NCBI GenBank assembly: GCA_017483605.1
Contig: JAFUWG010000046.1
Location: 1-34,499, forward strand
Origin: Bacteroidaceae bacterium
GTDB taxonomy: Bacteria > Bacteroidota > Bacteroidia > Bacteroidales > Bacteroidaceae
Length of the DNA stretch: 34,499 nucleotides
Reading direction: 5' to 3'
Below are positions 15,648 to 32,357 of the stretch, piece after piece. The stretch's first letter is position 1. Every line of letters begins with the position of its first letter. The notes below the pieces were generated by a model, which worked only from the letters and a program-made list of their open reading frames with translations, was not told where the DNA came from and ran no database searches. The position numbers were made by a program, and so were the translations under genes.

Positions 15648-15935
15648 ATGAACGCAAGACGCGAAAAATCTAAGCAGCAGAAGCCGCTGTTAAACAAGCA
15701 ACTGGAGGCAGCAACGGAACCAGTGAAGAATGAAGACCATAGCATTGCTTTCGAGGCGGGAAAGTTCTGCCTTGACATTGCAAAATTGGTGTTCGGTGGT
15801 GTCATTCTTGCTGGGATTATGCAGCAGGGAATCGAATTTAATTCCCTATTCCTCACAGGTCTGTGTGTTGTTCTGTTGTTTGTTGTGTTCGGCTTCTATC
15901 TGATAAAGAAATCTAAAGACAAAAATAGGAGATAG
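15648..15935 (+). CDS. Small membrane protein, possibly DUF6722-like
   Basis: This 95-residue protein has a basic, polar N-terminus followed by two likely membrane helices (FCLDIAKLVFGGVILAGIM, then LFLTGLCVVLLFVVFGFYLI) and a basic end (KKSKDKNRR). The TTG three bases upstream could also start, but the ATG at 15648 is more likely. The next gene starts 4 bp after its stop, so the two form an operon behind a good promoter. Similar two-helix proteins occur throughout Bacteroidales, and their function is not known to me. Confidence 0.65.
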   Translation: MNARREKSKQQKPLLNKQLEAATEPVKNEDHSIAFEAGKFCLDIAKLVFGGVILAGIMQQGIEFNSLFLTGLCVVLLFVVFGFYLIKKSKDKNRR

Positions 15936-15939
15936 AATT

Positions 15940-16047
15940 ATGACATTGACATCGTTTTTTATGGTTGTGGGCCTTATTGGTCTTGTGGCGTTCATAGGGA
16001 CTGCCATCTTTTTCCATCGTCAAGAAATGATTCCGAAAGGAAACTGA
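15940..16047 (+). CDS. 35-residue single-pass membrane peptide
   Basis: The frame reads MTLTSFFMVVGLIGLVAFIG, then TAIFFHRQEMIPKGN. The first 25 residues form one membrane helix. AGGAG (15927-15931), at the end of the preceding gene, is 8 nt before the ATG, one of the few good ribosome-binding sites in the window, and a strong terminator follows. The operon position and the Shine-Dalgarno support a real small protein. Confidence 0.6.
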   Translation: MTLTSFFMVVGLIGLVAFIGTAIFFHRQEMIPKGN

Positions 16048-16063
16048 TGATTCCATTCCTCCA

Positions 16064-16095
16064 GCCTCGAAGCACTACGCTTCGGGGCTTTTTTT
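16064..16095 (+). terminator. Terminator of the small membrane-protein pair
   Basis: GCCTCGAAGC (16064-16073) pairs with GCTTCGGGGC (16079-16088) around the loop ACTAC, and seven T follow. Confidence 0.9.
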
Positions 16096-16215
16096 GTGCT
16101 GTATTCCTCGGTATAAGATACGGCGGAATCCATCTGGTAATGTCATAATTTGTGTGAACCTTGTCAGTAAAAAAGCGTTCTCAGGTGTGTTTTTGAAAGT
16201 TTTTTGCTGAAAATG

Positions 16216-16246
16216 GTTGTAGTTTGGAAAGAAAGTGGTATCTTTG
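16216..16246 (+). promoter_or_regulatory. Promoter of the leu operon
   Basis: TATCTTTG (16239-16246) has TTG at 16216-16218 with a 20 bp spacer. Transcription would begin near 16253, about a dozen bases before the leader peptide start. Confidence 0.65.
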
Positions 16247-16264
16247 CAACCGATTTTGTAAGAT

Positions 16265-16360
16265 ATGGCAACATTTGGTAACACATCGCTACTCAACCTT
16301 TTGGGACTTCGACTTACTGAGTCGGAGGTGAGAAAGGTGTGTATGTGTTATCAGGCATAA
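16265..16360 (+). CDS. Leucine-rich leader peptide of the leuACD attenuator
   Basis: This 31-residue frame reads MATFGNTSLLNLLGLRLTES, then EVRKVCMCYQA. Six of the ten residues from 9 to 18 (LLNLLGLRLT) are Leu, read from cta, ctc, ctt, ttg, ctt and ctt codons. It begins just after the predicted transcription start and overlaps RNA segments 1 and 2 of the attenuator. Its role is to sense charged tRNA-Leu by ribosome stalling, as in the leu leaders of enterobacteria. Too short for ordinary gene finding, it is supported by its position and the hairpins after it. Confidence 0.8.
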   Translation: MATFGNTSLLNLLGLRLTESEVRKVCMCYQA

Positions 16361-16416
16361 CGAAAAATAAAGAATGATAAACCTTTCTCACGGCTGTGGG
16401 GAAGGTTTTCTTTTTT
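16296..16416 (+). promoter_or_regulatory. Leucine attenuator: alternative hairpins and terminator
   Basis: Segment 1 (ACCTTT, 16296-16301, within the Leu codons) can pair with segment 2 (AAAGGT, 16333-16338). Segment 2, extended (GTGAGAAAGGT, 16328-16338), pairs perfectly with segment 3 (ACCTTTCTCAC, 16381-16391). Segment 3, extended (16379-16391), pairs over 13 bp with segment 4 (16396-16408) and is followed by TTTTCTTTTTT, forming a terminator. A ribosome stalled at the last Leu codons (to 16315) would cover segment 1 and leave segment 2 free to form the antiterminator. Confidence 0.8.
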
Positions 16417-16464
16417 ATGAACGTGTGCCTCGTGGCTGTGAGAACTAAAAACTAAATTCAAAAT

Positions 16465-17967
16465 ATGGCAGACAGATTGTTTATTTTTGACACGACGCTC
16501 CGCGACGGCGAGCAGGTGCCTGGATGTCAACTCAACACGGTTGAGAAGATTCAGGTGGCAAGGCAGTTGGAGGCATTGGGCGTGGATGTCATCGAGGCTG
16601 GTTTCCCCATCTCCAGCCCTGGCGATTTCAACAGTGTGGTTGAAATCTCGAAGGCGGTCACTTGGCCGACCATCTGTGCATTGACTCGTGCGGTGCAGAA
16701 GGACATTGATGTGGCAGCCGAAGCGTTGCAGTATGCGAAGCGGAAGCGTATCCACACGGGTATCGGCACGAGCCCTTCACACATCAAGTACAAGTTCAAT
16801 TCCACTCCCGAGGAAATCATCGAACGTGCTGTGGCTGCGGTGAAGTATGCCAAGAAGTATGTGGAGGACGTGGAGTTCTATGCCGAGGATGCAGGTCGCA
16901 CGGACAACGAGTATCTGGCTCGTGTGATTGATGCCGTGACCAAGGCAGGTGCGACGGTTTGCAACATCCCCGACACGACGGGATTCCGCGTGCCGAACGA
17001 GTATCATGAGAAAATCAAGTACCTCTATGAGCACGTGGATGCCTTTGCCGCTGGCAAGTCCATCCTCTCGACCCACTGCCACAATGACCTCGGCATGGCG
17101 ACGGCAAACACGGTGGCAGGTGTGCTGGCTGGTGCCCGTCAGGTGGAGGTGACCATCAATGGTATTGGCGAACGTGCCGGTAATACCTCTCTGGAAGAGG
17201 TGGCAATGATATTCAAGACCCACCCCGACCTCGGCATCGAGACGAACATCAACACGACGAAGATTTATCCGACGAGCCGCATGGTGTCGTCGCTGATGAA
17301 TATGCCTGTGCAGCCCAACAAGGCGATTGTGGGCAAGAACGCTTTTGCACACTCCAGCGGCATCCATCAGGACGGTGTGCTGAAGAACGCATCGACCTAC
17401 GAAATCATGGACCCCAAGGAAGTGGGCATTGATGACAACGCCATCGTGCTGACGGCTCGTTCGGGTCGTGCCGCTCTGAAGCATCGTCTGCACGTGAACG
17501 GTGTGGAGGTGGATGGCGAAAAACTTGACAAACTCTATGAGGAGTTCCTCAAACTGGCTGATAAGAAGAAGGAGGTGACGGATGATGACATCCTCGTGTT
17601 GGCTGGTGCCGACCGTTCGGAGACGCACAACGTGAAACTCGACTACCTGCAAGTGACTACGGGTATGGGCGTGAAGAGCGTGGCTTCCATCGGTCTTGCC
17701 ATCGCCAACGAGCACTTCGAAGCAGCCGCATCGGGCAATGGTCCTGTGGATGCCGCCATCAAGGCACTCAAGCAGATTATCAAGCGTCAGATGACCCTCA
17801 AGGAGTTCACCATCCAAGCCATCTCGAAGGGCTCCGACGACATGGGTAAGGTACACATGCAGGTGGAGTACAACAACCACCTCTACTATGGCTTTGGTGC
17901 CAACACCGACATCGTCACCGCCTCCGTCGAGGCTTACATTGATTGTATCAATAAATTCCGCGATTAA
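16465..17967 (+). CDS. leuA: 2-isopropylmalate synthase
   Basis: This 500-residue enzyme condenses 2-ketoisovalerate with acetyl-CoA, the first committed step of leucine synthesis. [10 protein letters not shown] at 8-17 carries Arg13 and the metal ligand Asp14, and THCHND supplies His204 and His206. [16 protein letters not shown] and [13 protein letters not shown] are typical of the family. The C-terminal region (about 370-500) is the leucine-binding regulatory domain, so feedback inhibition is expected. Its length is normal for the family. It is first in leuA-leuC-leuD, with 3 bp gaps, under the attenuator. Confidence 0.95.
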
Positions 17968-17970
17968 ACA

Positions 17971-19362
17971 ATGGGAAAGACATTATTTGACAAGATATGG
18001 GATGCCCACGTGGTTCAGAACGTGGAGGATGGTCCCACACAGTTGTATATCGACCGCTTGTATGCCCATGAGGTGACAAGTCCACAGGCGTTCGACACGC
18101 TGAGAGACAAGAACATCAAGGTGTTCCGCCCCGACCATGTGGTGGCAATGCCCGACCATAACACTCCGTCCGACCAGCAGGAGGTCATCAACGACCCTGT
18201 GGGACGGAAGCAGGTGGAGACCTTGGCGAAGAACTGTGCCGAGTTCGGCATCAAGCACTTTGCGATGGGTACGAAGGACAATGGCATCATCCATGTGGTG
18301 GGTCCCGAGAAGGCACTTTCGTTGCCAGGCATGACCATTGTGTGTGGTGACTCGCACACTTCTACGCATGGAGCCGTGGGTGCCATTGCGATGGGTATCG
18401 GCACCAGCGAGGTGGCACAGGTGTTGGCTTCGCAGTGCATCCTGCAGAGCAAGCCCAAGACCATGAGAATCAACATCGAAGGTACGCTGCCGGAGGGTAC
18501 GACTGCCAAGGATGTGGCACTCTACATCATGGCTCAGATGACCACCAGCGGTGCGACTGGGTATGCTGTGGAGTACGCAGGTTCGGCTGTCCGCAGCATG
18601 AGCATGGAAGGTCGTCTGACCCTCTCCAACCTCTCCATCGAGATGGGTTCACGTGCAGGTCTGATTGCCCCCGACGAGACCACATTCGCCTATCTGAAAG
18701 GGCGTGAATATGCCCCTAAGGGTGCCGACTGGGACAAGGCGGTGGAGGAGTGGAAGCAACTTTATTCCGACCCCGATGCCGTGTTCGACAAAGAGGTGAC
18801 CTACCGTGCAGAAGACATCGCTCCACGCATCACTTACGGCACCAACCCGGGTGCTGGCATCGCCATCGACGAGTGCATCCCAACGCTCGACGAAATCCCT
18901 GAGGCAGACCAGAGCCAGTTCCTCAGCATGTTGGAATACATGCAGTTCCAGCCCGGTCAGAAACTTGAAGGTGTGCCTGTCGATTACTGCTTCCTTGGTG
19001 CATGTACCAATGGTCGCATCGAAGACTTCCGTGCCTTCGCCTCTGTGGTGAAAGGCAAGAAGAAGGCTGACAACGTGGTGGCTTGGCTCGTGCCTGGCTC
19101 ATGGCTCGTTCGTCAGCAGATTATTGACGAGGGCATCGACAAGATTCTGGAAGAGGCTGGCTTTGAACTTCGTCTTCCCTCTTGTTCCTCTTGCCTTGCC
19201 ATGAATCCCGACAAGGTGCCCGCTGGCAAACTCTCCATCTCCACCAGCAACCGCAATTTCGTCGGTCGCCAAGGTCCTGGTGCCCGCACCATCCTTGCCT
19301 CGCCGCTGGTTGTGGCAGCATCTGCCATCACAGGAGTAGTAACTGACCCAAGAAAACTGTAG
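17971..19362 (+). CDS. leuC: 3-isopropylmalate dehydratase large subunit
   Basis: This 463-residue aconitase-family subunit isomerises 2- to 3-isopropylmalate together with LeuD. Cys345 ([13 protein letters not shown]) and Cys405/Cys408 ([10 protein letters not shown]) hold the 4Fe-4S cluster, and [11 protein letters not shown] is the classic family signature. It follows leuA by 3 bp and precedes leuD by 3 bp, so the three are surely co-transcribed. The same LeuCD complex normally also converts citramalate in organisms that use CimA, and cimA is at 29180 here. Confidence 0.95.
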
Positions 19363-19365
19363 AAT

Positions 19366-19977
19366 ATGAAAGAGAAATTTGACATCATTCAGTCAACCTG
19401 CATTCCGATTCAGATTGACAACTGCAATACCGACCTCATCATCCCTGCCCGTTACTTGGCAAGCACCACTCGTGACCCACAGTTCTTCGGCGATGCCTTC
19501 ATGCACGACCTCCGTTTCGATGCAGAAGGAAAACCTGTGGCAGACTTCGTGATGAACCAACCCGAGTATAGCGAAGCACCTCGCAAGGGTGTACACGAAA
19601 TCATCGTAGGCGGTCAGAACTGGGGCTCAGGCTCCAGCCGCGAACATGCAGCATGGGCAATTGCTGGCTACGGCGTCCGCGTCGTCATCTCCAGTTCCTT
19701 TGCCGACATCCACCGAAACAACCTCCTCAATTGCTTCGTCCTTCCTGTCATTGTCAGCAAGGACTTCCAGCAGGAACTCTTCGACACCATCGCCCAGAAT
19801 CCACAGGCAGAGGTGAAGGTGGATGTGCCCAACCAGACGGTGACAAACCTCGCCACGGGTCACTCTGAGCACTTCGACATCAACTCCTACAAGAAATATT
19901 GCCTCATGAATGCATACGACGACATCGACTTCCTCCTGTCTAATACGGACAAGATTGAGGCATACGAAGGGAAATAA
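19366..19977 (+). CDS. leuD: 3-isopropylmalate dehydratase small subunit
   Basis: This 203-residue protein is the swivel-domain partner of LeuC. NTDLIIPARYL near residue 25 and GSGSSREHAAWAI near residue 87 are the family signatures, and the length is normal. It is the last gene of the operon, and a terminator follows 26 bp later. leuB, often nearby in Bacteroidales, is not within the window. Confidence 0.95.
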   Translation: MKEKFDIIQSTCIPIQIDNCNTDLIIPARYLASTTRDPQFFGDAFMHDLRFDAEGKPVADFVMNQPEYSEAPRKGVHEIIVGGQNWGSGSSREHAAWAIAGYGVRVVISSSFADIHRNNLLNCFVLPVIVSKDFQQELFDTIAQNPQAEVKVDVPNQTVTNLATGHSEHFDINSYKKYCLMNAYDDIDFLLSNTDKIEAYEGK

Positions 19978-29126: not shown

Positions 29127-29157
29127 TTTGTATTGTCCTCACTTATTCGTAACTTTG
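29127..29157 (+). promoter_or_regulatory. Promoter of cimA
   Basis: TTTG (29127-29130) and TAACTTTG (29150-29157) are exactly 19 bp apart, the best consensus match in the window. The leader is only about 15-20 nt, leaving no room for an attenuator. Confidence 0.8.
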
Positions 29158-29179: not shown

Positions 29180-30703
29180 ATGGATAAGTTTGTAGAAATC
29201 ATGGACACGACGCTGCGCGACGGCGAACAGACGAACGGCGTGAGTTTCGTGCCGCACGAGAAGTTGATGATTGCACGTATGTTGCTGATGGACCTGAATG
29301 TGGACCGCATCGAGGTGGCGTCGGCAAGGGTGTCGGATGGTGAGAAGGATGCCGTGAAAAGCATCTGCCGATGGGCTCGTCAGGCAGGTATGCTGGACAG
29401 GGTTGAGGTGCTTGGCTTCGTGGATGGAAAGACATCGCTCGACTGGATTGCTGACTGCGGCTGCAAGCACATCAACCTGCTCTGCAAGGGGAGCGAGAAG
29501 CATTGCACGTATCAGTTGAAGAAGACGCTGGAGGAGCATGTGGCTGACATCAAGCGGAGCATCGAGTATGCACAAGAACTGGGCATCAGCGTGAATCTGT
29601 ATCTGGAGGATTGGTCGAACGGCATGAAGGATAGCCCCGAGTATGTGATGGGCTTTGTGGATGCCTTGCGAGAGAGTGGGGTGAAGCGGTTTATGCTGCC
29701 CGACACGCTGGGCATTCTGAATCCGTCGCTGACGGCTGCATTCATCGGGCAGATGGTGAGTCGTTACCCCGAGTTGCACTTTGACTTCCATGCTCACAAT
29801 GACTATGACTTGGCGACGAGCAATGTGCTGGCGGCGGTGGCGGCTGGCTGCAAGGGTGTGCATACGGCCGTGAACGGATTGGGTGAGCGGGCAGGCAATG
29901 CTCCGCTTTCGTCGGTGCAGGCGATTCTGAACGACCACGCCCATGTGCGGACGAACATTAAGGAGGAAAATTTGGGCACGGTATCGACGATGGTGGAGAG
30001 CCTGTCGGGCATCGCCATCCCACCTAACAAGCCGATTATTGGCGAGAGCGTGTTCACACAGGTGGCTGGTGTTCATGCCGATGGCGACAACAAGAACAAT
30101 CTCTATTGCAACGATCTCTTGCCAGAGCGTTTCGGCAGGAAGCGTGAGTATGCACTGGGCAAAAACTCGGGCAAGGCGAACATCCTGAAGAACCTTGAGG
30201 AACTGGGCTTGGAACTGACTCCAGAGCAGACACGGCGGGTGACTGACCGCATCATCGAACTGGGCGACAAGAAGCAGTTGGTGACGCAAGAGGACTTGCC
30301 ATACATCGTGGCTGACGTGCTGAAGCATGGTGCTCCCGACGACAGGGTGAAACTCATCTCCTATATGGTTTCGACCGCCTACGGATTGAAGCCGATGGCA
30401 TCGGTGAAGTTGGAGGTGAACGGCGAACTGTATGAGGAGAGTGCGATGGGTGACGGTATGTATGATGCCTTTGTGCGTGCGGTGCGTCACATCTATCGCG
30501 ACAAGTTGCAGCGGAAGTTCCCGTGGCTGACCAATTACGTGGTGAGCATTCCCCCAGGTGGCCGCACGGATGCCCTCGTGCAGACCTCCATCTCGTGGAC
30601 ATACAACGACAAGGCATATCGCACTCGTGGTCTTGATGCCGACCAGACGGAAGCGGCTATCAAGGCAACCATCAAGATGCTGAACTTGATAGAGAACGAG
30701 TGA
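29180..30703 (+). CDS. cimA: (R)-citramalate synthase, Leptospira CimA type
   Basis: This 507-residue LeuA-family enzyme condenses pyruvate with acetyl-CoA, starting isoleucine synthesis without threonine. It lines up closely with the Leptospira interrogans CimA I remember: [43 protein letters not shown] (with the Tyr that shapes the pyruvate pocket), HAHNDYDL (metal ligands His204 and His206), GVHADGDNKNNLY and LLPERFGRKREYALGKNSGK. The C-terminal regulatory domain is present. The difference from LeuA at 16465 is clear, so this is not a duplicate leuA. It has its own promoter and lies 9.2 kb from leuACD. Confidence 0.85.
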   Translation: MDKFVEIMDTTLRDGEQTNGVSFVPHEKLMIARMLLMDLNVDRIEVASARVSDGEKDAVKSICRWARQAGMLDRVEVLGFVDGKTSLDWIADCGCKHINLLCKGSEKHCTYQLKKTLEEHVADIKRSIEYAQELGISVNLYLEDWSNGMKDSPEYVMGFVDALRESGVKRFMLPDTLGILNPSLTAAFIGQMVSRYPELHFDFHAHNDYDLATSNVLAAVAAGCKGVHTAVNGLGERAGNAPLSSVQAILNDHAHVRTNIKEENLGTVSTMVESLSGIAIPPNKPIIGESVFTQVAGVHADGDNKNNLYCNDLLPERFGRKREYALGKNSGKANILKNLEELGLELTPEQTRRVTDRIIELGDKKQLVTQEDLPYIVADVLKHGAPDDRVKLISYMVSTAYGLKPMASVKLEVNGELYEESAMGDGMYDAFVRAVRHIYRDKLQRKFPWLTNYVVSIPPGGRTDALVQTSISWTYNDKAYRTRGLDADQTEAAIKATIKMLNLIENE

Positions 30704-31220: not shown

Positions 31221-32357
31221 ATGACTGATTTTGAAGAATATATCCGACAGGGTGAACCGAGCAAACGTGAGAAAGCGTATGCTTGGCGGACGGCAATAGG
31301 CTTGCAGGCAGTGGATGGGTTGACCACCTCCGACTACCTGAAGGAAACAGCCCGTCGGCACATCGAGGGAGAAATCAGCATAGATGAGGCTCGGGGGTTG
31401 ATTAAGAGTTATTATCAATCGAAGACTAACCGTGAGCCGGACGATGACGAGAAGCAGGAGGCGGATAAGGTGTCGGGTAATATCGCCAAGATATTGAATG
31501 AGCGTTCTTTCACGTTCTCTGTAGTGGGCTTCACCTCAATTCATCGCCGTATTTTCGAGGGCGTGTTTAAGTTTGCCGGCAAGGTGAGGGATTATGACAT
31601 CACCAAGAAGGAGTGGGTGCTGGACGGTGACACGGTGCTCTATACGTATGCGGAGGATATTCGCAAGGCTTTGGAGTATGACTTGGAGCAGGAACGGCAG
31701 TTTGCCTATAAGGGGCTTCCGATGGAGGCGATGGTGGAGCATATTGCCAAGTTCGTGTCAGGCATTTGGCAGATTCATCCTTTTGGGGAGGGGAACACGA
31801 GAGCAACCGCTGTGTTCACCATCAAGTATCTCCGTTCCATTGGCTTCAACATCGACAACGACCTTTTTGCCGAACATTCGTGGTATTTCCGCAATGCCTT
31901 GGTACGTGCCAACTATAAGAATGCCCAAGAGGGCGTTGATTATACGCCTATCTATCTGGAGCGTTTCTTCCGCAACCTGCTTTTAGGCGAACAATGGGAA
32001 CTTCGTAGCCGCTATCTGCATATTCATCCGACGGAAGAGTGGAAGGTACAACCGAATCACACCCCCACAAGTACCCCCACAAGTACCCCCACAAGTTTGT
32101 CGAATCAATTTTCAACAACGAATGAAAATGTGCTGAGGTTGGTAAAGGCTATAGGGAATGAAGAATATTCCATCAAGCAGATGCTTTCTGCTGTTGGATT
32201 GAAAGACCGCAAGAACTTTATCGAATATTCTCTTGACCCTGCCATCCAGCAAGGTTTTGTCACCATGCTTTACCCCGACAAGCCCCGCCATCCTCGCCAG
32301 AGGTATTTGTTGACGGTGAAAGGGTTGGCTCTATATGTACAATGCATGGGAAAGTAG
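31221..32357 (+). CDS. Fic-domain protein with VbhA-like N-terminus
   Basis: This 378-residue protein is a probable AMP-transferase of the Fic family. The active-site motif HPFGEGNTRA is at 186-195, with all key residues (His, Phe, Glu, Gly, Asn, Arg). The N-terminal 60 residues (YAWRTAIGLQAVDGLTTSDY, then EGEISIDEARGLIKSYY) resemble the VbhA antitoxin fold. The usual S/TxxxE(G/N) inhibitory motif appears only as LQAVDG, with Asp for Glu. A Pro/Thr/Ser linker (PTSTPTSTPTS, about 284-294) joins a C-terminal winged-helix domain (about 300-378). No separate antitoxin gene is adjacent. Confidence 0.85.
   Translation: MTDFEEYIRQGEPSKREKAYAWRTAIGLQAVDGLTTSDYLKETARRHIEGEISIDEARGLIKSYYQSKTNREPDDDEKQEADKVSGNIAKILNERSFTFSVVGFTSIHRRIFEGVFKFAGKVRDYDITKKEWVLDGDTVLYTYAEDIRKALEYDLEQERQFAYKGLPMEAMVEHIAKFVSGIWQIHPFGEGNTRATAVFTIKYLRSIGFNIDNDLFAEHSWYFRNALVRANYKNAQEGVDYTPIYLERFFRNLLLGEQWELRSRYLHIHPTEEWKVQPNHTPTSTPTSTPTSLSNQFSTTNENVLRLVKAIGNEEYSIKQMLSAVGLKDRKNFIEYSLDPAIQQGFVTMLYPDKPRHPRQRYLLTVKGLALYVQCMGK
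32061..32096 (+). repeat. Three tandem 12-mers in the Fic linker
   Basis: ACCCCCACAAGT occurs three times in a row. The unit is a multiple of three, so gain or loss would alter only the length of the linker. Confidence 0.9.

Follow-up and report, generated by a model that had tools for sequence, protein, structure and literature searches.

Ribosome-mediated attenuation is an old and well-known means of controlling transcription. In the leu operon of Salmonella and E. coli, a Leu-rich leader peptide and a terminator/antiterminator arrangement precede leuA, and the locus described here, which lies in a 34,499-nucleotide stretch of Bacteroidaceae DNA (the window), is built alike. Within the Bacteroidetes, the Bacteroid-trp motif is a trp leader-peptide attenuator; attenuators of branched-chain amino-acid operons have reportedly been predicted in the Bacteroidetes/Chlorobi group by Vitreschak et al. 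in 2004, and Lopatovskaya et al. are likewise said to have predicted attenuators in 2010. For the Salmonella leu leader, parts of one study deal with the CUA control codons, a feature shared by the window, and with the effect of replacing them (PMC1183508). The Bacteroid-trp motif (RF01692) is tabled as a probable cis-regulatory RNA of Bacteroidetes (PMC2864571); it belongs to the same phylum as the window but to another operon and signal, and it has no Rfam match there. In Flavobacterium psychrophilum, a member of the same phylum but of another family (Flavobacteriaceae), 'strong clues' are mentioned for leader-peptide attenuation upstream of amino-acid biosynthesis operons, with operons and sequences unnamed in the passage concerned (PMC9723704). 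Closer still is Bacteroides thetaiotaomicron, of the same order as the window, where small ORFs occur in long 5′ UTRs, the example given being a hypothetical protein gene; the same source describes the mRNAs of these bacteria as being without Shine-Dalgarno sequences, and the word 'leucine' is absent from its main text (PMC7366714). The sequence-only reading of the window had called attenuation far less studied in Bacteroidetes, which is a fair description as far as these portions of the literature go, though the Flavobacterium, B. thetaiotaomicron and Bacteroid-trp cases show that it is not unknown there. A literature search with most subscription journals outside its scope yielded no title that we recognised as treating a Bacteroidales leu attenuator or the matching of leader codons to an operon's cimA.

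The operon in question consists of leuA, encoding 2-isopropylmalate synthase (16465-17967; NF002086, 724 bits against a cut-off of 532), leuC (17971-19362; TIGR00170, 609 bits against 560) and leuD (19366-19977; TIGR00171, 149.5 bits against 116), which the ORF list and protein-family models place consecutively with 3-nt gaps; these genes, the leader elements described below and the cimA-like gene of the window lie on the forward (+) strand. By LeuA, the closest relatives among named genomes are for the most part MAGs from the rumen that carry the labels Bacteroidaceae or Prevotellaceae. A terminator-like hairpin behind the upstream gene (16063-16089) suggests that the leader belongs to a transcription unit of its own, and the promoter expected upstream of it is present in the form of a -7 element, TATCTTTG (TAnnTTTG; 16239-16246), with a weak GTTG (16216-16219) at the -33 position, 19 nt before it and agreeing with TTTG in three of four bases. 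We take these two elements to represent the Bacteroidetes promoter consensus. A TAnnTT[TC]G motif also precedes the leader ATG in the relatives listed, and a sigma-70 promoter scan of 15900-16800 returned no match.

Downstream of the promoter lies a leader ORF of 31 codons plus stop, MATFGNTSLLNLLGLRLTESEVRKVCMCYQA (16265-16360), whose Leu identity is kept in relatives and which holds, as had been read from the sequence, six Leu codons within ten (codons 9, 10, 12, 13, 15 and 17; 16289-16315). The last of these ends at 16315, and segment 2, GTGAGAAAGGT (16328-16338), the 5′ arm of the antiterminator, does begin 13 nt after it, with 12 nt between. Segment 2 lies inside the ORF, the stop codon starting 20 nt past it, and its complementarity to the antiterminator 3′ arm ACCTTTCTCAC (16381-16391) is as perfect as had been claimed, at 11 of 11 pairs. 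This arm is part of segment 3 (16379-16391), which also forms the 5′ arm of an intrinsic terminator, predicted from sequence between the leader ORF and leuA; the antiterminator 2:3 and the terminator 3:4 consequently exclude each other through the shared segment. The terminator pairs segment 3 with segment 4 (16396-16408) over 13 positions, two of them G-U, around a GGCT loop, and is followed by TTTTCTTTTTT, which overlaps the end of the stem; a U tract with one C (16406-16416) marks the expected termination zone. The 13 bp attributed to this stem hold for the window, but the outermost pair occurs in only 7 of 29 genus sequences and the conserved stem is of 12 bp. Upstream, a 1:2 protector hairpin (16274-16355) contains an inner hairpin (16307-16315 with 16319-16327), and segment 1 (16296-16302) pairs with 16332-16338. 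The 2...3 pattern, defined by a 10-nt core and a gap of 30-45 nt, occurs once in the window and in 0 of 100 shuffles, and the region 16240-16470 has a folding z-score of -6.2, with none of 200 shuffles as stable.

We regard it as highly probable, from sequence and folding models, that this element is a ribosome-mediated transcription attenuator of leuACD, and the leader very probably lets the ribosome sense a shortage of leucine and keep transcription going. In this mechanism, RNA polymerase would start near 16252, as judged from the -7 element, and a ribosome would translate the leader. When charged tRNA-Leu is scarce, the ribosome would stall on the CUA/CUU-rich Leu codons with its leading edge just short of segment 2 and with segment 1 covered, whereupon the free segment 2 would pair with segment 3, no terminator would form and leuACD would be transcribed. 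With leucine plentiful, the ribosome would pass over segment 2, 3:4 would form and transcription would stop near 16412-16416. Translation of the leader with stalling, efficient termination and leucine as the physiological signal are thus what the arrangement predicts. Compared with the leu operon of Salmonella and E. coli, no sequence relation was detected (there was no Rfam leader match), the promoter is of Bacteroidetes type, segment 2 lies inside the leader ORF, and no leuB was found among the next ORFs scanned.

The geometry of this switch was examined in a folding model in which the ribosome is an unpaired block from -14 to +15 of the P site and the RNA ends just past segment 3. With the A site at codons 9-17, where the Leu codons lie, P(2:3) in the window is 0.98-0.99; it drops to 0.20 once the A site reaches codon 18 and is 0.00 over codons 19-28, so the suggestion that a ribosome stalled on the Leu codons would free segment 2 agrees with the model. 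The same calculation was carried out for 47 leaders of the order, namely those of 57 whose pairing had p<0.05 (see below), in which the last control codon ends a median of 12 nt before segment 2 and the position of the switch is 0-3 codons beyond the final Ile or Leu control codon in 42; on sequence and nascent-RNA folding, a modelled stall at the control codons is thus predicted to free the antiterminator. At the end of the leader the static model gives P(2:3) of 0.61, 0.91 and 1.00 with the ribosome at codon 30, codon 31 and the stop, a consequence of the 20 nt that separate segment 2 from the stop; unlike the window, 35 of the 47 leaders have P(2:3) below 0.5 at the stop. In trp-type attenuators, a ribosome at the stop masks segment 2, which the modelled window leader does not do, and termination in this genus would therefore need the ribosome to pass over segment 2 or to be released quickly. 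This difference weakens the likeness to the trp-type form and not that to ribosome-mediated attenuators in general. Without a ribosome, P(2:3) in the window is 0.02, 1:2 being favoured, but it is below 0.5 in only 20 of the 47 leaders, so the protector appears weak in many leaders of the order, and the description of the attenuator as 'complete' is slightly too strong. In all eight full-length folds of the window, stalled ones included, P(3:4) is 0.98-1.00, and since the terminator wins each of them, antitermination must be kinetic.

Conservation was assessed in two sets of leuA loci. The first set of 109 combines the best 80 of 592 related loci from named genomes with 29 new best-scoring loci from an order-wide search that matched 47 genomes; the cimA status of these 29 was read from coordinates and entered by hand. 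The second comprises 40 regions hand-picked from 179 order-wide genomes with a match, half with one LeuA-like match and half with two or more. Promoter, leader and terminator occur together in 53 of the 109 related leuA upstreams and in none of 315 dinucleotide-preserving shuffles (three for each of 105 full-length upstreams), where the rule called for a leader ORF with at least five Leu, Ile or Val in ten codons, a promoter element upstream and a terminator downstream. The sequence-only reading had staked its case on related genomes keeping the Leu run and the paired segments, which they do: the leader is found in 32 of 35 same-genus leuA upstreams, the window included, and is absent from three (G004, G028 and G031). 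Four same-genus genomes (L015, L021, L034 and L049) carry some 120-215 extra bases with GC-rich repeats (CCCCCTC...GAGGGGG) between attenuator and leuA. A covariance model, R1, built on 31 genus leaders finds one copy in the window genome and, counting that genome, has matches in 24 of the 25 genomes of the genus; in 23 of them the match precedes leuA, and in G020 it precedes ilvD. A good many of the matched genus leaders had been in its alignment and so match by construction; R1 also gives weak opposite-strand matches on the same leaders, the terminator being nearly palindromic.

Leaders were not called at 38 of the 109 first-set loci and 18 of the 40 second-set loci, and in 27 and 2 of these, respectively, TAnnTT[TC]G lies within 60 nt of leuA, as for an ordinary short 5′ leader. 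Lineages near the window genus in which the entire attenuator is missing and such a motif stands close to leuA in its place include L060, L063, L066, L067, L071, L072, L074-L076 and L078, among others, and on the first tree, with calls of leaders that have no terminator (T calls) included, leader presence changes at least 15 times.

The leader ORF shows selection on the identity of its Leu codons. Among 21 distinct 31-codon genus leaders, differences from consensus in the six Leu columns are synonymous in 37 cases and nonsynonymous in 8, where neutral expectation is that 35% of single changes be synonymous; the remaining parts, unlike the Leu columns, have no synonymous bias (synonymous/nonsynonymous 11/52 in codons 2-8, 4/14 in segment 2 and 12/32 in codons 27-31). 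Gaps that precede the end of the Leu run in the genus alignment span 3, 9 or 21 columns; within the ORF up to segment 2, gaps of one base are confined to the part that follows the run and are seen in L027-L029 and L034, whose frame and peptide end are altered and whose segment 2 is intact. This codon-level selection indicates that the leader is probably translated. It also bears on the reading that the leader is a real small functional peptide rather than a sensor, encoded by a gene that happens to end in a terminator; a C-terminus (EVRKVCxCYQA) that looks conserved within the genus would suit such a peptide, yet it differs between lineages while 2:3 is kept, differences outside the Leu columns are mostly nonsynonymous, the one-base gaps just described change the peptide end and spare segment 2, and leader length ranges from 17 to 38 codons within the genus, all of which makes this explanation very improbable. 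In keeping with a sensor, the control Leu codons vary synonymously and favour codons that are rare in the genes. Of the Leu codons in 57 leaders, 33% are CTA, compared with 1% of those in leuA, the leader share being higher in 55 of the 57, and CTA and CTT account for 1% and 9% of Leu codons in ten large window ORFs against 23% and 56% in the Leu columns of the genus leaders.

For the RNA pairings, the expectation of compensatory changes was borne out across the order but not for 2:3 within the genus. In the genus alignment of 31 leaders, 2:3 is paired in 98.5% of cells with one pair changed on both sides, which is not above shuffles (148 of 500 reach one double change); this weak covariation arises because the arms are nearly invariant, and the case rests on the wider order. 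Cells are paired in 93.7% for 3:4, with four double-change cells, and in 78.1% for 1:2, with 27. Across the order, segments 2 and 3 have changed in matching ways between lineages, with arms that differ and still pair, such as GGAAGUGAG/CUCACUUCC (L099), GGAUAGUGAG/CUCACUAUCC (L088) and GAGAGAAAGG/CCUUUCUCUC (L134), and with 18 pairs between the two segments in L068. In 47 of 57 Bacteroidales leaders the best complementarity of the leader to the terminator 5′ arm exceeds that of shuffles (p<0.05), and all 57 have a segment 2 that begins between +48 and +68 nt from the leader ATG. When partners were swapped among 50 dereplicated leaders, the own 2:3 score averaged 23.8 against 18.8 for swapped partners (permutation p=5e-5), and the own score exceeded the median swap in 38; in just 6, however, did no other segment 3 outscore the leader's own, the arms being alike in many lineages. 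As the loci are related to one another and so lack independence, these p-values serve as guides.

A structured 5′ leader with a terminator would equally be expected if a metabolite-binding riboswitch or a T-box controlled the terminator and the ORF were incidental. Rfam, however, gave no match in the window at gathering and nothing but a tRNA among seven loci, the window leader included, at E<=0.5, and neither the synonymous changes of the Leu columns nor the dependence of codon identity on operon content, described next, is something that a riboswitch needs; we therefore consider this possibility as improbable as that of a functional peptide.

The window leader is of a Leu type that goes together with the position of cimA. 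This gene encodes citramalate synthase, of the pyruvate route to isoleucine, and follows leuD in many Bacteroidales. In the window, a cimA-like gene (29180-30703) is displaced by 9.2 kb from leuD; its product is best matched by the Leptospira-type CimA model (629.6 bits, below the cut-off of 950), the LeuA models reaching at most 363.8. The sequence TAACTTTG (29150-29157) lies 22 nt before its ATG, leaving a short 5′ leader, and no leader ORF lies between the two. Downstream of the displaced cimA is a Fic/DOC-family protein gene (31221-32357). Where cimA is linked to leuACD, 48 of 48 terminator-backed leaders have at least two Ile codons (35 of 35 in the first set, 13 of 13 in the second), whereas with cimA displaced or absent, as in the window, this holds for 1 of 14 (1 of 13 and 0 of 1), the second set's single leader with cimA apart saying little about that class. 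Linked here means that cimA lies downstream of leuD with its start within 1.7 kb, or at equivalent coordinates, and that gene order is known; Ile codons were counted in a ten-codon control window, and the threshold of two was set on the first set and then applied to the second. Terminator-backed leaders whose cimA status is obscured by contig ends (nine in the first set, two in the second) were excluded, as were T calls (14 and 6). With T calls included the picture is slightly weaker, 15 of 16 linked and 1 of 3 apart having at least two Ile codons. On inspection, four of the T calls (L147, L158, L209 and L216) look spurious, and L243 has the look of a genuine leader with Leu as its only control codon.

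This association recurs along the phylogeny. On the LeuA tree, cimA linkage changes at least seven times and the Ile state at least eight, and the six independent contrasts that fall on supported branches point in one direction (median sign-test p=0.031, with a range of 0.031-0.0625); the quick first tree (110 rows, T calls included) offers four usable contrasts, nearly all pairings of which agree (p=0.125). Individual genomes illustrate both states: two same-genus genomes (G030 and G021) have cimA after leuD together with Ile-rich leaders, and clear cases on the other side are two genomes in which cimA gives no match at E<=1e-30, one with the leader MNTTLLSLSLTSGLTLSK (L143) and the other with MQNSQIHILLLSNLLLLTMGHESGCL (L156). 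Exceptions are a subclade (L027, L028, from the same genome as L061, and L029) with two Ile codons and cimA on another contig, and G033, whose leader is of the Ile type although the 3.7 kb downstream of leuD contain no cimA. Regulatory codons thus follow operon content across the Bacteroidales, which is new here. The tree cannot tell gain from loss, but the changes may have been repeated departures of cimA from the operon, each accompanied by a loss of Ile codons.

Leaders of the same design precede ilvD. R1 matches before ilvD in G020, of the same genus, and in G038 and G047, outside it, and terminator-backed leaders occur at 25 of 38 ilvD loci, made up of groups of 7 and 29 and of two chosen because R1 had matched them. 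At least two Val codons lie in the control window of 21 of these 25 leaders, against 0 of 73 leuA leaders. At the ilvD upstreams L160, L253, L254 and L257-L285 the leaders are rich in Val, Ile and Leu, and in many of them the terminator arm resembles CCUUUCUC; an example is MKLLNTVLVVVVVVVLKNIE (L283). No such leader was found at L161-L166, six ilvD loci of the window's genus that include the one in the window genome, and among hisG, trpE and ilvD upstreams in G000-G005 none was judged credible, the trp search covering the stretch before trpE, possibly within an operon. One further R1 match in G047 (E=0.0097) looks like an ordinary terminator and was set aside. The hisG upstream of another Bacteroidales genome (L168, in G038) contains a short ORF rich in His, MKLYTSHHGHHHFLQ, at a distance of 188 nt from hisG, which from its sequence is likely part of a histidine attenuator. 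Taken as a whole, we think it probable that one homologous family of branched-chain attenuators with a GUGAG:CUCAC 2:3 core precedes the leu and ilv operons of Bacteroidales, with its codons rewritten for each operon (Leu for leuACD, Leu and Ile where cimA is added, and Ile, Leu and Val for ilvD), and that the Ile codons were lost where cimA departed.

This agreement between the amino acids coded in the leaders and the content of the operons supports the proposal that leucine would be the signal at the window. It is also what weighs on the remaining explanation, in which attenuation does occur but responds to the general speed of translation or to starvation for any branched-chain amino acid rather than to leucine specifically. 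In the folding model a ribosome at codons 6-8 also frees segment 2, and a single Ile codon stands at position 7 in 10 of the 21 distinct leaders of the genus, as such a broader signal would allow; against this stand the six Leu in ten codons with their rare-codon bias, the near restriction of two or more Ile codons to operons with cimA, and the occurrence of two or more Val codons in most ilvD leaders and in none of the leuA leaders, and we judge a general signal unlikely, if less so than a riboswitch or a functional peptide. A leucine-sensing attenuator is the reading that we retain.

The mechanism is of a known kind, and the order-wide switching of codons is the part that is most worth publishing. 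What the locus adds is a well-supported leucine attenuator, one with no Rfam match, in the Bacteroidales, a major order of the gut and rumen in which we found little documentation of such control. For annotation, a leuA leader with at least two Ile codons predicts that a citramalate synthase gene is linked. The switch itself is of an ordinary type, but sensing codons that change with the genes they control make it a good natural test case, and the matching of codons to operon is a strong and testable sign of amino-acid sensing by translation. If the proposed history is true, the genomes of these bacteria would already contain a replicated test of sensor specificity, carried out by evolution.
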